Source of the DNA: Melioribacteraceae bacterium
GTDB lineage: Bacteria; Bacteroidota; Ignavibacteria; Ignavibacteriales; Melioribacteraceae
Assembly (NCBI GenBank): GCA_021647785.1
Contig: JAKIUC010000049.1
Location: 1-33,742 of the forward strand
Reading direction: 5' to 3'
DNA: 33,742 nucleotides
Below the pieces are notes generated by a model that worked only from the letters and a program-made list of their open reading frames with translations, made no database searches and was not told the DNA's origin. Positions 20,130-33,742 of this stretch are shown here, piece after piece. The stretch's first letter is position 1; the number at the start of each line of letters is the position of its first letter. The translations under genes and the position numbers were made by a program.

Positions 20130-21125
20130 TTATTTTTTCAGAATATGCAAATATTCAGTTGTCTTTTTAGCACTATAATTTCTATTTTCATCTCTATCTG
20201 CTTTGAATCTTTGATAGTTTTCAGAAATATCAACTGAGTATTTCCCATATTTAGACATTATATTTTTAATTTGTTCAAAAGGTATTAAACCCTCGTTATT
20301 ATAACTAAGAAAAATATAATCAAATTTTGAACGTTTAATTAGCTCTTCAAATTCTTCAGCAACATTCCGTTTTACACAATATTTAGACCGCTGATATTCA
20401 CGCATCCCTGTCTTACCGTATGGAATAAAATTATCGTATAAAGCAATAGTATTTAATAAATGATAGTTTGCCCCATATTGCCTATGATTATAGGGAGGAT
20501 CAAGATATAAAATATCACCTTCAATTCTATTTATCAGTTTATTAGAATCTTCCATATAAACTTCGTGAGAGTTATCGTTTGTTTCAAAAATAGCTGGGGT
20601 AAACTCTAAGGGTTTTAGTGCTGTTCGTTTAAGTTTTTTTAAATAGGCTCCGTAAACAGACGCTGTATTAGCTACCTTATCTGCAGCTTCAAGTAAAGAT
20701 GCAAGAAGATAGAAATACGAATTCTCATTTATTTTTTTATTATGCTTAAGCTCTTCAATTATAGTTCTAATAGCATCAATTTTTTTTCCATTTTCATCAC
20801 TGAAATAATTTCTTTCTCCGTGCCCACTTTTACAATAATTTTTGTAGATAAACCCTTTTACTCCTTGCAGTTTATTAAGATTTTGGAAAAATGAATCGAA
20901 CTTTATTTCTTTGTGGTTACCAATATAATTTCTCAATAAAACATAACTGTAAAATTCAAAATCATTTGCAATAACTTTTCTAACGCGAGTTTTTAGATTG
21001 CGGGCTACTATTCCTGTTCCACCAAATATTTCAGCATAAACTTTATTACTTAAATCTCCAACATTTTCAGTAATAGAATTTATGATAAAATCAGTTAATT
21101 TATTTTTGGAACCTATATAATTCAT
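20130..21125 (-). CDS. D12-class adenine-specific DNA methyltransferase
   Basis: The 331-residue protein is a Dam-like N6-adenine methyltransferase: YIGSKNKL (motif X, 3-10), AEIFGGTGIVAR (motif I, SAM binding, about 31-42) and the catalytic DPPY (209-212) in YLDPPYNHRQYGANYH, then FLSYNNEGLI. The presence of a putative nuclease 41 bp upstream on the same strand suggests a type II restriction-modification pair. The recognition sequence cannot be read from sequence. A solitary methyltransferase is the alternative. Length and motifs are complete. Confidence 0.93.
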   Translation of the reverse strand: MNYIGSKNKLTDFIINSITENVGDLSNKVYAEIFGGTGIVARNLKTRVRKVIANDFEFYSYVLLRNYIGNHKEIKFDSFFQNLNKLQGVKGFIYKNYCKSGHGERNYFSDENGKKIDAIRTIIEELKHNKKINENSYFYLLASLLEAADKVANTASVYGAYLKKLKRTALKPLEFTPAIFETNDNSHEVYMEDSNKLINRIEGDILYLDPPYNHRQYGANYHLLNTIALYDNFIPYGKTGMREYQRSKYCVKRNVAEEFEELIKRSKFDYIFLSYNNEGLIPFEQIKNIMSKYGKYSVDISENYQRFKADRDENRNYSAKKTTEYLHILKK

Positions 21126-21166
21126 TTTTTCTTTTTCTACCTTATAATTATTTATGTATCTTCATT

Positions 21167-21781
21167 TTATCCCTTTGTAATCCATAATAAACTTGAATAA
21201 ATTTTGCCATTGCCAAAGTCAAACTCATACAAATTATTTTTAGAAAAGTTATCTATATACAAATCTAACTCTTTTTTTAATGATATTATCTCTGATTTCA
21301 TTTTCCAGTGTTGATTATTTATATCATACATTATGATGAATAGTCTATTTTCAAGATGTTTTCTACCTTGCTGACTTTGATTATCATATAACCATTGTAT
21401 TAGCTCTCTTTCATTTTCTCTAGCATATTTATATGGTTGATTAAAACCTTTTGGATAAACAGATGTCTTATGGTCAAATGGAATGTTGTCAATTGTAAAA
21501 TCAATTAACTTATCGAAAGAGTTTTTATTCGCTATAACATTATTATGAGAAGCAAATATGTTTTCTGCAGCCATAGCAGACCAAAAATTATACCATCTGT
21601 TAAGAGCATAATCTCTAAGTTCTTGACTAAAATTATCAGTTTTTCTTAATAGTGATTCAAAACTATAAGTTTGATAAATAAAGTTTGTATCACTATCCCA
21701 CGAATTAGACTGTTTTCGTCCCCATCTATATGGATATAACAATCTCTTTTTCAACTCTCTTTCTATTCTTGGTAAATTCAT
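21167..21781 (-). CDS. Putative PD-(D/E)XK restriction endonuclease partner
   Basis: I cannot place this 204-residue protein in a named restriction family. It has a very conserved-looking core: NRWYNFWSAMAAENIF, then IDFTIDNIPFDHKTSVYPKG. The latter fits a PD-(D/E)XK nuclease core, with Asp94, Asp103 and Lys105 in an IPFDHK strand and Glu73 in the preceding helix. NQSQQGRKHLENRLFIIMYD follows. The ATG has an AAAGGG site. Position directly before an adenine methyltransferase, in a run of short gaps, supports a restriction role. From memory, proteins with a similar NRWYNFWSA...FDHKTS core occur next to methyltransferases; function remains inferred. Confidence 0.65.
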   Translation of the reverse strand: MNLPRIERELKKRLLYPYRWGRKQSNSWDSDTNFIYQTYSFESLLRKTDNFSQELRDYALNRWYNFWSAMAAENIFASHNNVIANKNSFDKLIDFTIDNIPFDHKTSVYPKGFNQPYKYARENERELIQWLYDNQSQQGRKHLENRLFIIMYDINNQHWKMKSEIISLKKELDLYIDNFSKNNLYEFDFGNGKIYSSLLWITKG

Positions 21782-24437: not shown

Positions 24438-24704
24438 AATACATTCCTTATGATATTTATAGCTACTAATAAGTTCAATTTAAGAGGTATGATTTTTAAG
24501 TTTTGAATCTAAATTTGATGGTTATAAATATACACAATTGGTAGTAAATTATTTGAAATGAATGGATAATTAAAAAGTGAAATGGCAAACGTGAAGTATA
24601 AAAATAGTGATTAGGAGGCAAAGTGTTTTTAATTCTTAAACAGGTGAACCTGTTGTGTTCACTGTTATGGGCTGAAATTTATTTATATCTTGGCTTTATT
24701 ATTT
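24438..24704. other. Non-coding gap with a 16-bp palindrome
   Basis: The only notable structure in this 267-bp gap is AACAGGT-GA-ACCTGTT at 24639-24654, a palindrome with perfect 7-bp arms. A nearby GTGTTCACTGTT partly repeats its half-site. It could be an operator. A plus-strand GTG frame with an AGGAGG at 24613-24618 overlaps it, but runs antisense to the next gene and is not accepted as a gene. Confidence 0.5.
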
Positions 24705-24962
24705 TTACCAAGGTTCGTCAATCATTAAATATTTTTGTCTCTCAGCTTTCAATTTTTCCATTGATATTCTATGATGTATCCTTTGGTGATTGAAATTATT
24801 ATAAACTCCAATTGGGTCAAATTTAGGAGCAACACCTTTATCAAAATATTCTTTACTGAATTCAAGCATAAATTTTTCAAGCTCTAATTTAAGTATCTTG
24901 GTAAGATTCAAATGTACAGTTGATGATAATTCATCTAATGTGCTTTTTATCGATGCAGGCAT
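24705..24962 (-). CDS. Hypothetical protein, probably 5'-truncated
   Basis: The 85 residues from ATG 24962 match no family I know. The C-terminus is NHQRIHHRISMEKLKAERQK, basic and helical, preceded by a Leu/Lys-rich amphipathic helix (LNLTKILKLELEKFMLEFS). The same frame stays open upstream to about 25085 (KFEILKNGEIDIDKIF, then TLTEFISQLSAISYDPF) but has no start codon and then meets TAA. The visible gene is therefore probably the tail of a longer protein whose 5' end was lost, next to the stop of the cyclase gene. It may be a pseudogene. Confidence 0.4.
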   Translation of the reverse strand: MPASIKSTLDELSSTVHLNLTKILKLELEKFMLEFSKEYFDKGVAPKFDPIGVYNNFNHQRIHHRISMEKLKAERQKYLMIDEPW

Positions 24963-25108
24963 AAATGGGTCATAAGAAATGGCACTTAATTGAGATATAA
25001 ATTCCGTTAAAGTTTTTGTCTGAAATATTTTGTCTATATCAATTTCCCCATTTTTTAAAATCTCAAATTTCGGAAAGGAGCTAACTTACATTATAGGGAA
25101 AAGCATAA

Positions 25109-27364
25109 CTACTTACTCTTTAATACAGAGACTCCATTCCAATCATCAGCGGGGGGATTTAAGATAAAATCTGTAGAACGCTTCAAATAAATTTTGGAAA
25201 GTTCATCGTTCGGATTTTCATTCAATGATTTTTGAAAAAGATTTTTTGCATCTTCAAATTCTCTTTCTCTATATTTTTTGTAACCCTCAATATAATTTTC
25301 ATAAATTCTAAATTTATCAGCAGCTTCATTATTCTTATTAAATCCAAGTAGCTCGTAAACAGTTATTGGTTCTGTTTTACCTACAACTACAATATTATCT
25401 ATTACCCTTACAAATACTTCATCTTTTACTTTTGCATATGTAGTTTCGCTTATCATTACTGTAGTTCCATACATTTTGTTTGCACTTTCTAATCGTGCTG
25501 CAAGGTTTACACCATCACCCATTACCGTATAATCGAAACGCTCTACACCACCAATGTTACCTACTACCACATCAGCACTATTAATTCCAATCCGAGTTCT
25601 AACCTTACGTGCAGCCTCAGTGGAAAAAGTGCTTCTTAGTTCATCCATTTTCTTTTGCATTAAAATTGCAGTTTTGCATGCGTGTAATTCTTTATTTTCA
25701 ACCTCAAGTGGTGCCCCCCAGAATGCCATTAGTGAATCCCCCAAATATTTATCCAATGTTCCTTTTTGCTCCAACACAATGGATGTCATAATTGAAAGAT
25801 AATTATTAATAAACTCTACTAATTCTTCCGGTTCCATTTTTTCTGAAATTTTTGTAAAACCCTCTATATCACTGAACATAATTGTAATGTTCTTTTTAAC
25901 TCCACCAAGCGAGAGTTTTTCCGGATTGTTTAAAAGCTCATTTACTAACGATTTGCTTACGTATTGTCCGAACATTCCTTTTATCATAGCATTATGTTTT
26001 CTTACTTTTACAACATGATATGCAGTTGTGGAAAAGTAACCTACAATAAGAGTTGCAATAGGACTAATGATTGATATTATATAATTGTGTTCAACAAAAA
26101 GATAAATACCGAGAAAATAGAATGCCACAAAGAGCATTGTAAGAATTGAAAGATTAATTACTTCAGCCCAAATTAAATTTATTTTTTTGCTTAGTTTAAA
26201 AAATGAAAACATATAAAAAGCAAAAAATGATAATAAAAAGATTAAAAGCACTTCAATAATTTTTGATTCTCTCAATAAAAAATCATTCCAAATTACATTC
26301 TGAATAGCATTGGCGTGTATCTCCACACCCCACATTTGGTTATCCCCTTTTCGTTTACCTTGGCTAAAAGAGACTGGATGGAAATCTCTATCCTCCGGAA
26401 GTGTTGAACCGATAAGAACAATTTTGTCTTTAAACTTTCCCGATTGCAAAAGACCAGAATGCTCATCATCCCATGTATTTATATCTGTTTCATAATAGAG
26501 TTCATCTTTTGTTTGAAAATCTTTATCATCCAAAACATCAGTAAATTTTAGATATTCAAAAGTTCCATTTGGTCCATAATAATTAATAAGCATTGAAGAT
26601 TTATCGTAACGAGGAATTTTTCTATCAGCAAGCTCAAAGTAGGAATCTGAAATTCTTGAAATGTAGTTTGATTTAAGTCCAAAATATTTATTGAGCAGAG
26701 CAAATCCGAATGTTGGCAGAATGGATTCATTAACAGAAGAGATAGCAAGGGGTTCGTAACGGCGGTAAATTCCATCTTCGTCACTACCAATCTGTACAAT
26801 TCCTACAGAGCTATCAACAGCATAAAATTTATTTCTGTAATTATATGAATCTTGCTTTATTGTGTAGCTCCCTTCCTCCATTAGCAACTCAGCCTCCACA
26901 TCAAGCATACCTGCAACCACTACGTTTCTCGAATTAAGTATTGCTTTCTTTAAGAGTTCATCATTTATTGGAGAAAACTTATCATCATTAGACATTAGGA
27001 GATCAATACCAACAGCTTTTGCTCCTGCAATTTTAAGGTTATTTACAATTTTTGCAAAGTAGGAACGTGGCCAGGGCCACGAATTATAAGGCTCCGGAAT
27101 TTGGTCATAATCCTCTTGAGAAATACCAAGAATTATCACATCCGCTTTATCTTTGATGTTAATCACATTTTTGTTAGAGAAACGAATATCAAGATATTTC
27201 AATTCCAATTCTTGCAACGGGGCAATAGAGATAAAATAATTTTGTGTAATTGATAAGACAAAAATTGCAGAGGTAAATGGCACCAGAAATAATGGTAAAA
27301 GAAGTTTAATCTTTCGCCGGTATCTTCGAATATTTCGTAACTTTTGAAAAATTATAAACTCCAA
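25109..27364 (-). CDS. CHASE2-domain class III nucleotide cyclase
   Basis: The 751-residue membrane protein starts with one helix (about 21-40), then an extracytoplasmic CHASE2 sensor (about 43-360), three helices (about 370-390, 402-423, 429-447), and a class III cyclase domain (about 490-675). Metal-binding Asp499 (MFSDIEGFT) and Asp543 (YLGDSLMAFWGAP), Lys539 as a purine-recognition residue, and Asn620/Arg624 (VNLAARLE) are all present. Thr613 replaces the Asp partner of Lys, the pattern of class IIIb cyclases. It should make cAMP in response to a periplasmic signal. A C-terminal helical tail (about 688-735) looks TPR-like. The start is TTG, as no ATG is available upstream. It is last in the FecR/barrel cluster. 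Confidence 0.95.
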   Translation of the reverse strand: MEFIIFQKLRNIRRYRRKIKLLLPLFLVPFTSAIFVLSITQNYFISIAPLQELELKYLDIRFSNKNVINIKDKADVIILGISQEDYDQIPEPYNSWPWPRSYFAKIVNNLKIAGAKAVGIDLLMSNDDKFSPINDELLKKAILNSRNVVVAGMLDVEAELLMEEGSYTIKQDSYNYRNKFYAVDSSVGIVQIGSDEDGIYRRYEPLAISSVNESILPTFGFALLNKYFGLKSNYISRISDSYFELADRKIPRYDKSSMLINYYGPNGTFEYLKFTDVLDDKDFQTKDELYYETDINTWDDEHSGLLQSGKFKDKIVLIGSTLPEDRDFHPVSFSQGKRKGDNQMWGVEIHANAIQNVIWNDFLLRESKIIEVLLIFLLSFFAFYMFSFFKLSKKINLIWAEVINLSILTMLFVAFYFLGIYLFVEHNYIISIISPIATLIVGYFSTTAYHVVKVRKHNAMIKGMFGQYVSKSLVNELLNNPEKLSLGGVKKNITIMFSDIEGFTKISEKMEPEELVEFINNYLSIMTSIVLEQKGTLDKYLGDSLMAFWGAPLEVENKELHACKTAILMQKKMDELRSTFSTEAARKVRTRIGINSADVVVGNIGGVERFDYTVMGDGVNLAARLESANKMYGTTVMISETTYAKVKDEVFVRVIDNIVVVGKTEPITVYELLGFNKNNEAADKFRIYENYIEGYKKYREREFEDAKNLFQKSLNENPNDELSKIYLKRSTDFILNPPADDWNGVSVLKSK

Positions 27365-27435
27365 AAAAAAACTAATTTTAGAAATAACCTTTTTAATTTT
27401 TTCTATTTTACTTACTTACTAATTATATATAATAA

Positions 27436-29841
27436 TTAGAAGCTATATCTTAAAGTCATTCCAGAGATAGTGTTGGTACCAGTATCAGGCATATTGTAGT
27501 AACGCATTTGTGCTCTTAGCCATAAATTCTGAATAACTTGATATGATGCAACTAAATCAACCGCATGTCTGTTAAAGTCGCCAAAACTCGGACTGTAGTT
27601 AAAAGATAGTTCCAAATCATCATTCATCAATCTATATCTTCCACCTGCCATAATTGTTACATATTTGTACTGCACAGTAGTTATTTCACTATTGTAATAG
27701 ATAACACTAAAATTACTCACTAATGTTTTAGTCCAATAACTATTTAAAGTAAATGAAGTTGAAAAATATTTTGAATCATTATTATAATAACTATCATCTT
27801 CTCTATTTGAAGTACTGAAACTTAGAGATGAATTGTGGCGTACAGAAAACTTAAAATCATATCCAAAATTCAATGAAAATCTATTTGTAATATCATCTAC
27901 ACTTGAGATTCTATTGAGTGTATCAGTTAGTTCAATTCCATTTCTATTTTGATTTCGGATATAACTAAGAGTTATGTTCGGTATATCTGCTCTCATAAAT
28001 AATGAAGCAGATGCACGTAAAGTTTGGTAAGTAGTAGTAGCCATTTTTGTACCTTGTAGATTATCATTTAGATTTTCGTAACCAACCGAAAAGAACAATT
28101 GGTTATCTAAAGTTCTGAATCTATCAGTAATATTTAAACCGGCAATATCAGTTCTCGTATATTCCTGTCCAAAAGATTTGAACTGACTCCCTCTATAAAT
28201 ATAGGAACCTTTTAAATTATTATTAAAATAATTTAACTCAATTGATCCTTCTGCAGCTAACGAGGATAGCTCTGTAAAATTAAGAGGTTCTATAAACTGA
28301 TTTACTGTAAAGAAAGGTGATATCATATTCTTAATATTTTTAAAATTTTCAGCATCACTACCAATATCATTTCCAGAGGCAAAGATTGAATCTATCTGCT
28401 CATCACTATATGTACCTGAAGTAATATCAGAATTAATAATTGAAACTGCTGTTATACCTTTTATGATAATATTTTGGTCATCAATAGCCCATCTTAAATC
28501 GGCACTTGTTACAAGATTCTCCTCTGGTTTAGCACCAAATTCAACAGAGTTTACATCATCTTTTGCATGTAAAAACGAGACCCCAAATTCAAATCCATTT
28601 TTACTACCTAATCCAATTCTACCAGAGAGCAAGTCTCTTGAGTAGATACCAAAATCTACTTTTCCAAATGGAGAACCATATTTTATCGAATCAATTCTAA
28701 CTACATTTGTAAGTAAAGGAGCATCATCTTCTGCATAAGTTTCAAGTAAATTACCTTTCACTTCCCTTCTTACTTGACCGTACGAACCTTGCAGTTGAAA
28801 AACACCATAATCAATTTTTCCATCTACACCTCTTACTCTCTTTCCATTCAGTAGTAAATTGTTATAACGCGGGTAGCTATCCCCGCCTCGTAGATTAAGC
28901 CAATCGCTCGATACAGAGACTGAATATCTATTTTGCGGTTGTACATCCACATTCTCTTCAGAAGTAATATAACCGTAACCTTTGAACCTCCAATCGCCAA
29001 CTCTGGCATTTAGAGTTAAAGCTAAATTATTATAAAGCGTATTCTTGCCATTAAACAATTCGTTTCTTACTTCGCCAGCAGCGTTTCCGCTATATCTTAA
29101 CCCTCTTCCTAAATCCATTGCTACTGCACCGTCAACAGTAACAAAATCTCTTTTCATTGTATGATAGAGAGTGCCATCTTTATCATATACTTCTATCTCT
29201 AAACTTTGTTTGCCACTTTCAAGAGAACCCTCAAAATTTTGCGGATAGTAGAGAAGTAGTTCACCAGCAAATAAAACATTTGAAGTTACATCCTCTCCAT
29301 TCAAAATAATTTTTGTTTTTGAAATATCAACATTATCCGAAGCTTTTACCATCGAAATAGAAATGAATAATTCGCTTAAAGATAATGTTTCATTGCTACT
29401 CGGACTTAAGATTAAAACTTCTTCATCCTTTTCACTTTTCGATGATACTGTTAAATCTATTGGCTGTGCTGCTTCAGGTACACCAAGCGGATAAGTTTCG
29501 CTATTTCCATCTTTCATTTCAATAATTAAGTAGTATGTTAAAATTGGTGCAGAAACATCTTCTCCAGCAATTTGATATACTGCAATATCTCCGAGTATCT
29601 CCATCTCCCTAACTCTAACTTCAGTCTCTTGAAATGATTTATAAACTATTTGCACTCGGGAGACTGATAGTGAGTTAATTAAGGATACTTTTACATCTAC
29701 TGGATTTCCGTCTGTTATCTCTCCAAAAGTTATTGAAGATACAGTATTACTAGCTTGTGCAAATATTAAAGTTGAACTGCATAAAAAAAGGATAAGAGTA
29801 AGTATTATCCTTTTCATAAATTTCCGATTATCAAAAAGCAT
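27436..29841 (-). CDS. Large outer-membrane beta-barrel protein of the FecR/cyclase cluster
   Basis: The protein is 801 residues from the ATG at 29841, which has an AGGTG site; an ATG at 29817 would shorten the n-region. The signal peptide is KRIILTLILFLCSS...FAQA. About residues 30-240 form Ig-like periplasmic segments (SSNETLSLSELFISISMVKA; FVTVDGAVAMDLG). From about 250 to the end there are many amphipathic strands with aromatic girdles, closing in GMTLRYSF; the C-terminal Phe is typical of outer-membrane proteins. I recognise no named family. It lies 71 bp before the CHASE2 cyclase and 166 bp after the FecR gene, so it is probably the outer-membrane partner of a signalling unit. Confidence 0.8.
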   Translation of the reverse strand: MLFDNRKFMKRIILTLILFLCSSTLIFAQASNTVSSITFGEITDGNPVDVKVSLINSLSVSRVQIVYKSFQETEVRVREMEILGDIAVYQIAGEDVSAPILTYYLIIEMKDGNSETYPLGVPEAAQPIDLTVSSKSEKDEEVLILSPSSNETLSLSELFISISMVKASDNVDISKTKIILNGEDVTSNVLFAGELLLYYPQNFEGSLESGKQSLEIEVYDKDGTLYHTMKRDFVTVDGAVAMDLGRGLRYSGNAAGEVRNELFNGKNTLYNNLALTLNARVGDWRFKGYGYITSEENVDVQPQNRYSVSVSSDWLNLRGGDSYPRYNNLLLNGKRVRGVDGKIDYGVFQLQGSYGQVRREVKGNLLETYAEDDAPLLTNVVRIDSIKYGSPFGKVDFGIYSRDLLSGRIGLGSKNGFEFGVSFLHAKDDVNSVEFGAKPEENLVTSADLRWAIDDQNIIIKGITAVSIINSDITSGTYSDEQIDSIFASGNDIGSDAENFKNIKNMISPFFTVNQFIEPLNFTELSSLAAEGSIELNYFNNNLKGSYIYRGSQFKSFGQEYTRTDIAGLNITDRFRTLDNQLFFSVGYENLNDNLQGTKMATTTYQTLRASASLFMRADIPNITLSYIRNQNRNGIELTDTLNRISSVDDITNRFSLNFGYDFKFSVRHNSSLSFSTSNREDDSYYNNDSKYFSTSFTLNSYWTKTLVSNFSVIYYNSEITTVQYKYVTIMAGGRYRLMNDDLELSFNYSPSFGDFNRHAVDLVASYQVIQNLWLRAQMRYYNMPDTGTNTISGMTLRYSF

Positions 29842-30007
29842 CTTTTTCACCTAACATTATTTTTATCTGGCATTCACTTTTTTAAATAACAATATACTGG
29901 CAAATCGAAATTCAAATTAGTATTTGTGCTTTCGTTTAACCAGCAATCATAGGTATTACATTCAAATAATCCCGCATGGCAAGATAAATTTGAATAGTGT
30001 ATATAAT

Positions 30008-30706
30008 TTAATCTTCTTCCGGATAGAACTCTAACTCAATTGTTCCATCTTCAGTTTCAATAAATATTTTTTTAACTTTAGTCTTTTTAGTCTTGCTGAA
30101 CTTATTACTTTGTTCAGAAGAGATAGCTCCTTTCAAGATTTCTCCATCTGGACTTATTGATAAAGCAGCACCACCTTCAATAACAGCTTTTCTCTTATCG
30201 CCAATAAGAGATTGAACTTCAATTTTCCCATAATCGCAAACAATTGTGGTTGAGCTATCAGACCCAACTTCTATATATCCTGCTGTACCTCTTATTGCAG
30301 CAACAGCAGTTGGGGTAGTAAACTTAAATTCTTCAGCTTCTTGTTTATTAATATCAAACCCAATTAGACCTTTTTCAATAAAAGTATTTTTGTTTATTTT
30401 TTTATCTTCTCTATCACCATAAATATACATTATAGAATTTTCTCTAACTCTCAAGAGACCTGTTCCATCAGTAAATAGAACTAAAGCTAACGACTTAAAT
30501 CCTGTTTTAACTTGCTCGCCACTTTTTAAAGGTACTCCAGTTTTTGCTACTTCCCAATCTTCAGCATCAATTGTTTTATAAGAAACATCCTTAATTATTT
30601 TCTTTATCAAAGCAATTGGGGTTTCATTATTATCTTCTATTACAAATCCGATTGAGATAAAAGCGGCTATTATTATTGATACGATAAGCAATCTATTATA
30701 ATTCAT
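30008..30706 (-). CDS. Stand-alone FecR-domain protein
   Basis: From ATG 30706, whose GGAGGAG site lies 5 nt upstream, the protein is 232 residues; a start 27 nt further upstream would overlap the previous gene and lacks such a site. It has one N-terminal membrane helix or signal anchor (LLIVSIIIAAFISIGFV), then a FecR fold: GVPLKSGEQVKTGFKSLALV, the hallmark PTAVAAIRGTAGYIEV, and YGKIEVQSL. The tail is charged (TKKTKVKKIFIETED, GTIELEFYPEED). Unlike classic FecR there is no sigma-factor-binding N-terminus and no sigma gene nearby, so it likely acts in the periplasm as a binding module. It lies 13 bp after the upstream secreted protein. Confidence 0.9.
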   Translation of the reverse strand: MNYNRLLIVSIIIAAFISIGFVIEDNNETPIALIKKIIKDVSYKTIDAEDWEVAKTGVPLKSGEQVKTGFKSLALVLFTDGTGLLRVRENSIMYIYGDREDKKINKNTFIEKGLIGFDINKQEAEEFKFTTPTAVAAIRGTAGYIEVGSDSSTTIVCDYGKIEVQSLIGDKRKAVIEGGAALSISPDGEILKGAISSEQSNKFSKTKKTKVKKIFIETEDGTIELEFYPEED

Positions 30707-30719
30707 TTTCTCCTCCAAC

Positions 30720-31826
30720 CTAATTTGCTTCATATAAGAGATTAGTTAGTACATCTGGATTTCGTCTTAGATAATCCAAAATTTCCTGGAATTCTGCATA
30801 AGTCAATTGTCTTCCCCCTTCAAATTTAATTCGGATATCATTAAAATTAATATTGCCGTTTTGTAGGTCTGAGAGGAGGTTTTGTAACCTTTCTGCTGCT
30901 TCCGATTCTCCTTCCCCTTGCTGTTTCATATCATCAATAACTGTAATAATAAGTGTTTCAAAATCTTCAACTCCTTTATCTACAACAGGGCTACCCGAGC
31001 TATTAAGATAAAAATTTATAATATCAGAGTATATAATTGTTGGTCCACCTGGTCCTGGAACTACGCCTCTAACTTGAACAACAATTTCTTCTCCGCCCAC
31101 TAATTCTCTATCTAAAATTTCACGAAGATTTACACTAGTTTTAGTTCCAACACTTGCATTATCAACAATTGGGTTTCCCTTTTGCAAAGCTTCTTCTAAC
31201 GATTCAAGTTTGCTCGATCTAATATTTGCTTTCACAATAAAATCTGCAACTCCAAGTACATCAGTCCAAGTAAGCAAAATACCTGCAACATCTAATTGAT
31301 CTTCAGCACTTGGTTGAATAATTGACAAAGTTTGGGCTGGGTTTAAAAAGTCAAGGTCTTCGGTAGCATCACTTTGGAATTCCATATTACTATCAAAGAC
31401 TTTAATAATTATTTTATAAGTTCCGGTTGGTTTACCTTGTCTTAAATTTTCCTGAAGTAAATCTTCATTTGAATTAGACTCCTCTATTTCTATTCCATCA
31501 ATCGAAGAGAAATCATCATTATAAAAATTTCGTGAGGTAAATGGTTTTGTAGTATAACTAAGGAGTTCATTAAAAGAACTTTCATCAACTTTTCTCCATA
31601 AGATAGAACCTTGAACAATAACCATTCTATCCTGAGGTACCATAATTACTTGTAATATTCGTGGTGTACTCTCTAAAAATGGATTTGTAAGAAAAGCTGC
31701 AAATGATACTTCAGGCAAAGGCTGAAATACATTTAGTGTTACAATTACTCTTTCTTGTGCTGATAAATTTATTCCAAAAATAAAAACAAGAGCAAATAAT
31801 AACTTATTCATAATTCTAATTTTCAT
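30720..31826 (-). CDS. Secreted protein of unknown family, cluster partner
   Basis: The protein is 368 residues from ATG 31826, chosen because GAGG lies 6-7 nt upstream; an ATG 15 nt earlier has none. It has a signal peptide (LLFALVFIFGINLSAQ) and a beta-rich body resembling fibronectin-like or 'DUF-type' surface domains (PTGTYKIIIKVFDSN; LLTWTDVLGVADFIVKANI; EEIVVQVRGVVPGPGGPTII). The C-terminal helical segment contains AERLQNLLSDLQNGNIN and FQEILDYLRRNPDVLTNLL. I recognise no family. It is first in the run secreted protein - FecR - barrel - CHASE2 cyclase, all on the same strand. Confidence 0.7.
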   Translation of the reverse strand: MKIRIMNKLLFALVFIFGINLSAQERVIVTLNVFQPLPEVSFAAFLTNPFLESTPRILQVIMVPQDRMVIVQGSILWRKVDESSFNELLSYTTKPFTSRNFYNDDFSSIDGIEIEESNSNEDLLQENLRQGKPTGTYKIIIKVFDSNMEFQSDATEDLDFLNPAQTLSIIQPSAEDQLDVAGILLTWTDVLGVADFIVKANIRSSKLESLEEALQKGNPIVDNASVGTKTSVNLREILDRELVGGEEIVVQVRGVVPGPGGPTIIYSDIINFYLNSSGSPVVDKGVEDFETLIITVIDDMKQQGEGESEAAERLQNLLSDLQNGNINFNDIRIKFEGGRQLTYAEFQEILDYLRRNPDVLTNLLYEAN

Positions 31827-31926
31827 GATAACCTCATTCATAACTTATAAATTTGACTTGCTCTAAGTTATAAATATAAACAATAGAATAGTGTGATAGC
31901 AATCAATTTTTAGTTTAGTGTAAAAA

Positions 31927-32250
31927 CTAATTAATTTTCTCTTCATTGTTTACATTTGTAAATCCGAACTGCGGATTTGCTTGCCCTTCAATTTTAATCT
32001 CACCAAATCTTGATTCAAATTTATCAATATTATCTTGCAAAGCCTTTAATAACATTTTAGCATGTTGCGGTGTAGTTATTATTCTTGAATGAACTTTAGC
32101 TTTAGGAACACCTGGTACAACACGTGTAAAATCTATTATAAATTCTGCTGGTGAATGTGTAATAATTGCTAAATTAGAGTATATGCCTTCTGCTTCTTTT
32201 TCACCTAATTCTATATTAATTTGTTGTTGTTTCGGATTATTGTTACTCAT
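31927..32250 (-). CDS. DUF3467 protein
   Basis: From ATG 32250, preceded by an AAGAGAG site, this encodes 107 residues; the earlier start at 32286 would fall inside the terminator hairpin stem. The sequence INIELGEKEAEGIYSNLAII, THSPAEFIIDFTRVVPGVPK and KVHSRIITTPQHAKMLLKAL is diagnostic of DUF3467, a small cytoplasmic family of unknown function common in Bacteroidota. Its promoter must lie in the short gap beyond the terminator, or it relies on read-through. It is 100 bp upstream of the secreted-protein gene. Function unknown. Confidence 0.9.
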   Translation of the reverse strand: MSNNNPKQQQINIELGEKEAEGIYSNLAIITHSPAEFIIDFTRVVPGVPKAKVHSRIITTPQHAKMLLKALQDNIDKFESRFGEIKIEGQANPQFGFTNVNNEEKIN

Positions 32251-32269
32251 AATTCTCTCTTTCTTATTT

Positions 32270-32318
32270 AAAAAATAAAAACCCACAATTCATTTTTCAA
32301 TGTAAGAAATTGTGGGTT
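32270..32318 (-). terminator. Intrinsic terminator after the TPR lipoprotein
   Basis: On the minus strand AACCCACAATT (32308-32318) pairs perfectly with AATTGTGGGTT (32280-32290) across a 17-nt loop, followed by a T-rich run. It lies 21 bp beyond the TPR gene stop and 19 bp upstream of the DUF3467 start, insulating the two. Confidence 0.8.
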
Positions 32319-32339
32319 AATAAGATATTAGTTATTTAA

Positions 32340-33500
32340 TTATCTATATAAATCAGCTTTGTCGAAAGCTTCTTGAGATTTATCATTTTCACCTAAGTTA
32401 GCATAAACTTTACCAAGGTAATTCCAAATACCAGCATCTTCCGGAAAATCTTTTAAGTATCTTTCTAAAGGAGCAACTGCCATTCCAAATTTTTCTTTAT
32501 AAGTTAAATCATCAGAGTCAGCTTCAATAGCTTTTTCTTGCAAATCGGCTCCCCATTTTAGATAGCTAACACCTAAGTTATAATATGCACTTGTGTAATC
32601 TTCTTTTATTTCTATTGCTTTATTAAATTGTTTTATAGCTGCACTATAGTCTTCGGCACCTAATAAAAGTACGCCATAGTTGTAACGGTAAACTTCATTT
32701 GTTGGGTCCTTTTCAATTCCTTTTTGGAAAGTTTCCATTGCAACATCCATTCTATCAGCATCCACATAGGCGTTAGAGAGTTGAGCTAATATTTTTGAAT
32801 CCTCAGGATAAAGTTCTTGTCCCTCCTCTAAAAGCTCTATTTGTTTATCATACATCGCCATAGCTTTTATACTGTCATCAATATTTTTTGTATCCTTAAA
32901 TGAATTCATTAAAACAATAGCTTGATTACTATATACTTTACTTAAATCAACATAAGCTTCTGCCGATTTACTTAATTCAATAATTTTTAATAATGGCTTT
33001 TCAAGTTCAGTATCTCGTCCACTATTAATTAACGAATAAACCATATTTTGATATGCACCAACAGAATCAGGTTCAATAAGAGTACAATTCTGGAATCTTT
33101 CAACTGATTTATTATAGAACATTTTACTACTATCTTTCGAGGTTATTTTTGTACCTCTATTAAAAAGACCAACCCCTTTATTAAAGTTATCTTGCCACTG
33201 GAATTTCTTGTAGTCATCAATGTTCTTCTTAAATTTGTTACTAATTGCCAACGATTTATCAAAATTTTCAATCATCGGCTCAAGATTACCTTGTTCACCA
33301 TTAACATAACCCAATAGATAAAATCCTTCATCACTTTTAGGATTTTTTGTGGTCTCTTTTTCTAGTGCGTCTATTGCTTTAGCAAAGTTTTTTTGCTGCA
33401 CATACAGTTTTGCACTTGTTAATTCTGTTGATGAACATGCAAATCCAGAAAGCCCTAAAACCATACTAATTACAACTAAAATACTGAGTGCTTTTTTCAT
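32340..33500 (-). CDS. TPR-repeat lipoprotein
   Basis: From ATG 33500, with AGGAG 6 nt upstream, the protein is 386 residues. A lipoprotein signal (LSILVVISMVLGLSGFAC, Cys at about 22) is followed by about six TPR units, e.g. AKLYVQQKNFAKAIDALEKE, DVAMETFQKGIEKDPTNEVY and YSAAIKQFNKAIEIKEDYTS. It is a likely envelope scaffold or assembly factor, but the partner is unknown. Intact, ends in its own terminator, and is a single-gene unit. Confidence 0.88.
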   Translation of the reverse strand: MKKALSILVVISMVLGLSGFACSSTELTSAKLYVQQKNFAKAIDALEKETTKNPKSDEGFYLLGYVNGEQGNLEPMIENFDKSLAISNKFKKNIDDYKKFQWQDNFNKGVGLFNRGTKITSKDSSKMFYNKSVERFQNCTLIEPDSVGAYQNMVYSLINSGRDTELEKPLLKIIELSKSAEAYVDLSKVYSNQAIVLMNSFKDTKNIDDSIKAMAMYDKQIELLEEGQELYPEDSKILAQLSNAYVDADRMDVAMETFQKGIEKDPTNEVYRYNYGVLLLGAEDYSAAIKQFNKAIEIKEDYTSAYYNLGVSYLKWGADLQEKAIEADSDDLTYKEKFGMAVAPLERYLKDFPEDAGIWNYLGKVYANLGENDKSQEAFDKADLYR

Positions 33501-33742
33501 CACTTCTCCTATTATGTGTTCAAAAAAAAATAAAAAATTTAATTATTAAAGTACAGTATTTGAGTTCTACAATCAAGATTAAATTTGGTAAAATTATCAA
33601 TTAACTTATACCATACAGCAATTCAGAGTCAATTTTAAATTCATAAAAAACAATGATTTATGCAGAAAGCAAAAGATATTTTTCTTGTTAAATGGAAAAA
33701 GTAAAAAAGAAAGGAAATAGAGTTTTATATTAATTTATCACT
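33501..33742. other. 5' region of the TPR gene, no further features
   Basis: The remaining 240 bp upstream of the TPR gene are AT-rich. An AGGAG site lies at 33505-33510 on the minus strand; promoter elements are not obvious and no other gene is visible to the window end. Confidence 0.5.

Follow-up and report, generated by a model that had tools for sequence, protein, structure and literature searches.

A conserved secreted protein-FecR-barrel-CHASE2 cyclase cassette in Ignavibacteria as a candidate trans-envelope receptor for cAMP production

The four genes and their products

Contig JAKIUC010000049.1 of a Melioribacteraceae bacterium (assembly GCA_021647785.1) was analysed over its whole length of 33,742 nucleotides (nt), which is referred to here as the window and corresponds to contig C99 of a 4.25-Mb genome. 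It carries four consecutive genes that encode a secreted protein (SEC), a FecR-domain protein (FEC), an outer-membrane barrel (BAR) and a CHASE2 adenylate cyclase (CYC). An initial annotation had placed four same-strand genes here and proposed that they pass an envelope signal to cyclic AMP (cAMP) synthesis. The list of open reading frames (ORFs) and their translations confirms all four on the minus strand, transcribed in the order SEC-FEC-BAR-CYC. From sequence, structural models and analogy with known systems, we consider it about two-thirds probable that this cassette is a trans-envelope receptor for cAMP production. Our handles L, G, C and f denote loci, genomes, contigs and families, respectively.

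CYC (25109..27364, minus strand; 751 amino acids, aa) comprises a periplasmic CHASE2 sensor, further transmembrane helices and a class III (K/T type) adenylate cyclase domain. Both Pfam matches are above cut-off (CHASE2, 169.6 bits, E 1.3e-49; Guanylate_cyc, 93.6 bits, E 1.5e-26). Residues D499, K539 and D543 are conserved in 111/111 distinct cassette cyclases, and T613, N620 and R624 in 110 of the 111, the exception being a gap. We take D499 and D543 to be the metal-binding aspartates, K539 and T613 to serve the substrate, and N620 and R624 to act on the transition state. The combination of lysine and threonine in class III cyclases fits adenylate over guanylate specificity. The active site is predicted to be intact and of the class III adenylate cyclase type, and the inactive domain that the initial annotation had considered damaging to its proposal is not indicated at any of the six catalytic positions. 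In a genome domain scan CYC was the sole class III cyclase domain, and no class I cyclase was found in a search that covered classes I and III, which we count in favour of the receptor model.

Cyclases that match the whole CYC profile also occur in L087, L088 and L089. Where the cassette has FecR protein and barrel, three other genes precede these cyclases; they encode a protein of ~390 aa, a CsgG/LpoB-like protein (by domain scan of L087 and L089) and a tetratricopeptide repeat (TPR) protein of 830-858 aa. Thus, the pairing of such cyclases with envelope partners is wider in the phylum. The genome of the window encodes a second CHASE2 protein (L094, G000:C13, 7634-10123), which is fused to a sigma-54 activator AAA+ domain and is predicted to be an envelope sensor linked directly to transcription.

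BAR (27436..29850, minus strand) is 804 aa long from a GTG codon and 801 aa from the first ATG. The structural model, based on 58 sequences (mean predicted local distance difference test, pLDDT, 85; predicted template modelling score, pTM, 0.71), agrees with the annotated 801-residue barrel with an immunoglobulin (Ig)-like part: residues 252-804 form a large β-barrel of ~26-28 strands (counted by eye) and residues 37-240 two N-terminal Ig-like domains. The best match among solved structures is MtrB (6r2q_B; Z 18.2, root-mean-square deviation 3.4, 433 residues, 14% identity), followed by a match at Z 14.8, and the fold also resembles usher pores (FimD, PapC) and TonB receptors. In this model, BAR is a wide, MtrB-like barrel that follows two Ig-like domains. 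Its only Pfam match, Big_7, is sub-threshold, and the 58 BAR sequences yielded no helpful family match; the BAR profile gave a weak match of the Ig region to peptidylarginine deiminase (0.0017) in the Protein Data Bank (PDB). With MtrB as the top structural match, BAR could be an MtrB that sheathes a cytochrome, as part of a porin-cytochrome conduit or as its remnant, but the CXXCH motif is absent from SEC, FEC, BAR and CYC, and we regard this explanation as highly improbable.

FEC (30008..30733, minus strand; 241 aa) starts within the SEC frame, with which it overlaps by 14 nt. Hydropathy places a hydrophobic stretch at residues 10-35, which could be a membrane anchor or a cleaved signal peptide, and the FecR domain (PF04773, E 1.8e-9) lies behind it as the only Pfam domain above cut-off. 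In the PDB, the FEC profile weakly matches an antifreeze protein (3e-4) and MtxA (0.03). Classical FecR cell-surface signalling through an unlinked extracytoplasmic function (ECF) sigma factor would be compatible with this domain and with 11 sigma-70 region-2 matches in the genome. It is nevertheless the least probable explanation we considered, because sequence, Pfam and hydropathy give no cytoplasmic anti-sigma region before the N-terminal helix, because none of the 11 matches lies on C99, and because the constant partner of FEC is the cyclase. The sigma scan covered this genome alone, and C99 ends shortly upstream of a TPR gene that precedes the cassette; within these bounds, FEC is indeed a FecR protein without an adjacent sigma partner, as annotated. 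In L062, L063, L064 and L074 the FecR protein is longer, is also hit by the BAR profile and contains an extra copy of the first Ig-like domain of BAR, placed by alignment and genome search (f10 loci and G078). This copy supports a link between FEC and BAR. The second FecR protein of the genome that holds the window has a glucodextranase-B-like and an Ig-like part and is encoded in L095 (G000:C74, 6971-16315), after a histidine kinase and before a 1617-aa protein with PKD repeats.

SEC (30720..31841, minus strand; 373 aa) has a signal peptide, two fibronectin type III (FnIII)/Ig-like domains and C-terminal helices; an in-frame ATG lies at 31826, inside the ORF that starts at 31841. The model from 57 sequences (pLDDT 87, pTM 0.56) locates the two domains at residues ~31-165 and ~169-283, ahead of the helices, and they match solved structures with Z up to 9.6 among many tied hits. 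Foldseek also matched SEC to transglutaminase and phage tail proteins; we regarded these hits as a general Ig/FnIII resemblance and set them aside. Sequence comparison with the PDB gave chance-level matches alone. SEC itself matches no Pfam family, and across the 57 sequences no family is matched by more than two members (best E 0.0049), in line with its annotation as a secreted protein outside known families.

Conservation of the cassette

CYC matches at E 1e-40 were obtained in 83 of 296 genomes of the phylum, own genome included. The surroundings of the best match in each of 45 genomes (L041-L085; the 34 top-ranking genomes besides the own one and 11 of the following 13) were searched with a profile for each of the four proteins in all six frames, which recovered the order SEC-FEC-BAR-CYC in 42/45; in one of the 42, L074, the barrel is split over two frames. 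Of the other three, L078 has FEC and CYC alone, and L055 is cut by a contig end, while SEC, FEC and the start of BAR end another contig of the same genome (L203). The third is L060, whose genome has SEC-FEC-BAR elsewhere (L185), with no cyclase beside it. When the same 296 genomes were searched with the BAR profile, 75 gave a match at E < 1e-58, and in 65 of them a cyclase lies directly downstream of the barrel (coordinates compared by eye). The exceptions are G255, G030 and eight genomes from the families f22, f37 and f49.

A scan of named contigs with a closer BAR alignment returned 76 loci, whose full-length matches have best identities of 70-73%. They are titled Ignavibacteria, Ignavibacteriales, Ignavibacterium, Melioribacteraceae, Melioribacter or Stygiobacter, and some carry the less specific titles Bacteroidetes, Chlorobiota, Chlorobi, Chlorobiaceae or bacterium. 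The cassette is present in Stygiobacter electus (L141). The full order is present in 60/76; of the remaining 16, contig ends truncate 14, and L142 and L160 make up the rest. The sets of 45 and 76 loci share genomes, as seen from identical upstream regions, and their counts are not independent. Outside the class, all four genes occur in the families f19, f30, f45 and f50. The order is thus kept beyond this strain, within the class and in these four families, and its recurrence in tens of genomes argues that the arrangement is not due to chance. BAR had no match among plasmids at E 10.

BAR homologues also stand without a neighbouring cyclase, SEC or FEC in L186-L193; in L189-L191 the genes found ahead of BAR encode HIT and TPR proteins, and L190 has a Clp-like gene downstream. 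In G030 (L194), a frame of 1098 residues that matches the SEC profile (E 4e-31) is found upstream of BAR on the same strand.

While the order of the cassette stays, its flanking genes vary. Most loci of f4, f5, f8, f10 and f14 have two ORFs of ~385 and ~437 aa ahead of SEC. In L069 (11704-14187), genes for Dxr and for the site-2 protease RseP (NCBIfam) lie directly upstream of the cassette, and the two ORFs ahead of SEC in L062 and L066 resemble this pair by eye. RseP is described as participating in the cleavage of FecR-type anti-sigma factors in other systems (passages in PMC11637429).

Neighbours of this kind bear on a variant of the receptor model with another input, in which the CHASE2 cyclase would monitor outer-membrane assembly or integrity through SEC, FEC and BAR, with no specific ligand. 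Envelope-stress sensing has an analogue in RcsF, which in complex with outer-membrane proteins reports to IgaA. The RseP gene that precedes the cassette in some members of the class, an LptF/LptG-type gene beside L041, and the paralogous cyclases that adjoin CsgG/LpoB-like and TPR envelope proteins all point in this direction. However, the RseP and Lpt neighbours are confined to some families and may reflect housekeeping synteny, and we hold this variant to be possible but tentative.

Relation to known FecR and CHASE2 systems

The closest parallel is provided by Sinorhizobium meliloti. On pSymB, the end of a 1219-aa ORF overlaps the start of a CHASE2 cyclase gene by one base; the encoded protein has a FecR domain at 85-179 and TPRs up to ~606, and the cyclase is named CyaK in other S. 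meliloti records. From its position and length we identified the ORF as NsrA, on the assumption that nsrA lies directly upstream of cyaK. FEC aligns with the FecR part of NsrA at 99.6% probability over 188 columns (profile alignment), and CYC is 27% identical to CyaK. In the passages that treat it, NsrA is an outer-membrane receptor whose barrel spans residues 600-1200, and it is needed together with CyaK for signal perception (PMC7529298), and the signal raises cAMP, which is read by the CRP-family protein Clr (passages in PMC7529298 and PMC13001267). In both systems a CHASE2 class III cyclase is encoded next to a FecR domain and a barrel, which in the cassette is known from a predicted model, and the NsrA fusion supports a functional link among FEC, BAR and CYC. 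They differ in that NsrA is a single FecR-TPR-barrel polypeptide, whereas FEC and BAR are separate genes without TPR match, and in that the cassette adds SEC and Ig-like domains. On a Methylocystis plasmid, a FecR-TPR protein similar to NsrA directly precedes a cyclase that matches CYC residues 77-672.

Other published clusters share parts of this layout. In Campylobacterota, a CHASE2 cyclase clusters with a FecR outer-membrane protein, and the authors propose a single pathway; a phosphodiesterase and a TPR protein occur there instead of SEC, and no separate barrel gene is described in the passages on this cluster (PMC9239204). In the BiofilmReg operon of Burkholderia, a secreted FecR-domain protein adjoins a CHASE2 receptor, but the output consists of a histidine kinase and a response regulator, FecR is joined to LysM, and a barrel is unmentioned in the passages on the operon (PMC5192318). 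In magnetotactic bacteria, mtxA, which encodes TPR and Fn3/Ig-like parts, is followed by a gene similar to cyclase/CHASE2 proteins, while neither a barrel nor a separate FecR gene is described in the corresponding passages (PMC4439547). The FecA-FecR-FecI system likewise combines a barrel with a periplasmic FecR-domain protein, but requires a TonB receptor with a signalling domain, a cytoplasmic anti-sigma domain and an ECF sigma factor (passages in PMC11637429), and none of these three was found for the cassette.

Related CHASE2-FecR clusters have already been published, and the cassette would work like NsrA-CyaK while being differently built. The initial annotation had suggested that the FecR fold serves as a periplasmic relay and not as an anti-sigma protein. 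The layout and the NsrA precedent fit this proposal, whereas the physical contacts are what we infer, and FEC is best described as a putative periplasmic adaptor.

cAMP readout and the weighing of the receptor model

A CRP-type palindrome at 31892..31907 (no strand assigned) agrees with the consensus at 8/10 positions and lies 51-66 nt upstream of the SEC ATG. Operators were scored as sites with at least 8/10 consensus positions within 150 nt upstream, in dereplicated regions, and compared with 431 control regions upstream of those other genes in these loci that have intergenic DNA in front of them. They are present upstream of SEC in 37/92 regions versus 28/431 controls (Fisher p 6e-15), but upstream of FEC, BAR and CYC only in 6/102, 5/128 and 6/124, respectively. 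With one locus per genus the ratio is 17/31 versus 28/431 (p 3e-11). A weight matrix at the 95% control threshold finds the site in 37/78 class regions, 3/3 of f19 and 1/11 of f30, f45 and f50 combined. Because the training sites of the matrix had been selected by consensus and relatedness was only partly removed, the p values are too small; distances and spacers, however, vary between genera. Scored with a matrix built without its near relatives, the window site tops all 431 controls, as do the sites of L103, L104 and L165. The unscored position 6 leans towards T (22/37) and position 11 towards A or G (33/37). In an earlier test with 300-nt regions, plain shuffles and duplicates kept, 51/111 regions had at least 8/10 positions against ~14 expected, and the genome contains 8 exact instances of the CRP pattern versus 2 of a control pattern, which is suggestive only. 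Taken together, the sites indicate that the cassette is probably under cAMP-Crp feedback across part of its range.

A search for cAMP-receptor proteins, which the initial annotation had called for, returned six proteins that bind cyclic nucleotides (cNMPs). Two of the four loci read, on C68 and C25, encode proteins that match Crp/Fnr regulators below the NCBIfam equivalog cut-offs; the best match is CRP for the C68 protein (95.1 bits, cut-off 266) and NtcA for the C25 protein. The C68 protein combines a cNMP-binding domain with a Crp helix-turn-helix, and its best solved relatives are Crp/Fnr-family regulators, and it is the favoured candidate for the cAMP reader. Its orthologues at E 1e-40 occur in 56/296 genomes: 37 of the 65 in which CYC directly follows BAR, G255, and 18 without cassette. 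They cover all cassette genomes of the class except G097, and f19. From this distribution, regulator and cassette are not tied to each other in either direction. CRP/FNR homologues of Ignavibacteria have been linked to carbon sensing and not to a cyclase (passages in PMC8510549).

In the proposed mechanism, BAR, by itself or together with SEC, would sense either an extracellular ligand or the condition of the outer membrane, and its periplasmic Ig-like part and/or SEC would relay the resulting state to FEC. Anchored at the inner membrane or close to it, FEC would dock on the CHASE2 domain of CYC and alter cyclase activity. The cAMP produced may act through a CRP-like regulator, for which the C68 protein is the candidate, and this regulator may also bind upstream of SEC and provide feedback. 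The envelope-to-cAMP unit of the initial annotation is upheld by the conserved order and by the cyclase site that is intact by sequence; contacts, kind of signal and cAMP output are the parts we infer.

Several observations weigh against this receptor model. L078 contains FEC-CYC without BAR and SEC, although part of L078 reads N, and L142 contains BAR-CYC without FEC and SEC and adjoins a restriction-endonuclease-like gene. L160 and G255 have SEC-FEC-BAR with no adjacent cyclase, and G030 (L194) has a BAR relative without FEC and CYC. In the eight genomes of f22, f37 and f49, BAR occurs without an adjacent cyclase, and neither SEC nor FEC is matched at E 0.01. BAR shows no sequence similarity to the barrel region of NsrA in a profile comparison with one NsrA sequence. 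By consensus, the palindrome is not significant within the window, which has 8 matches versus 16 expected. A clear operator within 150 nt is lacking in 14/31 genera and in the near relative L105, and operators are not significantly enriched in f30, f45 and f50 (2/9 genera, p 0.12), where no C68 orthologue was found at E 1e-40 either. The 18 genomes with this CRP orthologue but without cassette belong here as well.

The barrels without cyclase in f22, f37 and f49 would also suit an export or channel operon under local cAMP control. In such an operon, BAR would be a barrel for secretion or uptake, with SEC or a nutrient as its cargo, FEC an accessory scaffold in the periplasm, and CYC a regulator acting through Crp, with no signal reception by BAR. 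The likeness of the BAR fold to usher pores (FimD, PapC) and TonB receptors, and the FnIII make-up of SEC, as in many exported surface proteins, agree with this explanation, and the CRP-type operator would provide the local control. In contrast, the TonB-receptor, plug and usher families of Pfam are matched neither by BAR nor by its relatives, and the FecR-barrel protein NsrA is reported to be necessary for signal perception (passages in PMC7529298). We therefore judge an export or channel operon to be unlikely.

Within the receptor model, a bolder version can be formulated, which we offer as a speculative possibility. Signalling would be independent of TonB and sigma factors: the wide MtrB-like barrel would present or hold SEC, as an FnIII-type partner, or the FecR protein through its lumen, the CHASE2 cyclase would directly read binding on the outside across the entire envelope, and cAMP-Crp would retune the operon. 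If this is true, these bacteria would receive their cAMP input mainly or solely through the cassette. The model bears on what CHASE2 domains sense and on how signals traverse two membranes to reach a cyclase. As the pathway is split over four co-conserved proteins, each of its steps can be tested separately, and the CRP-type operator, which links the sensor to its own output, offers a ready reporter. The split form also supports a view of FecR domains as general periplasmic adaptors, beyond anti-sigma roles.

Upstream of the cassette, the window contains genes for a DUF3467 protein (31927..32286, minus strand) and a TPR protein (32340..33503, minus strand). This pair precedes the cassette in 11/45 relatives, all of the family of the window, and is probably not part of its core. 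No terminator-like site was found in 24450-33742, and sigma-70 promoter-like matches there are at the level of shuffled sequence. Elsewhere in the window, the region 20130-21781 contains a 331-aa ORF that, by eye from its translation, resembles DNA adenine methyltransferases, beside a 204-aa ORF; the two are perhaps a restriction-modification pair.

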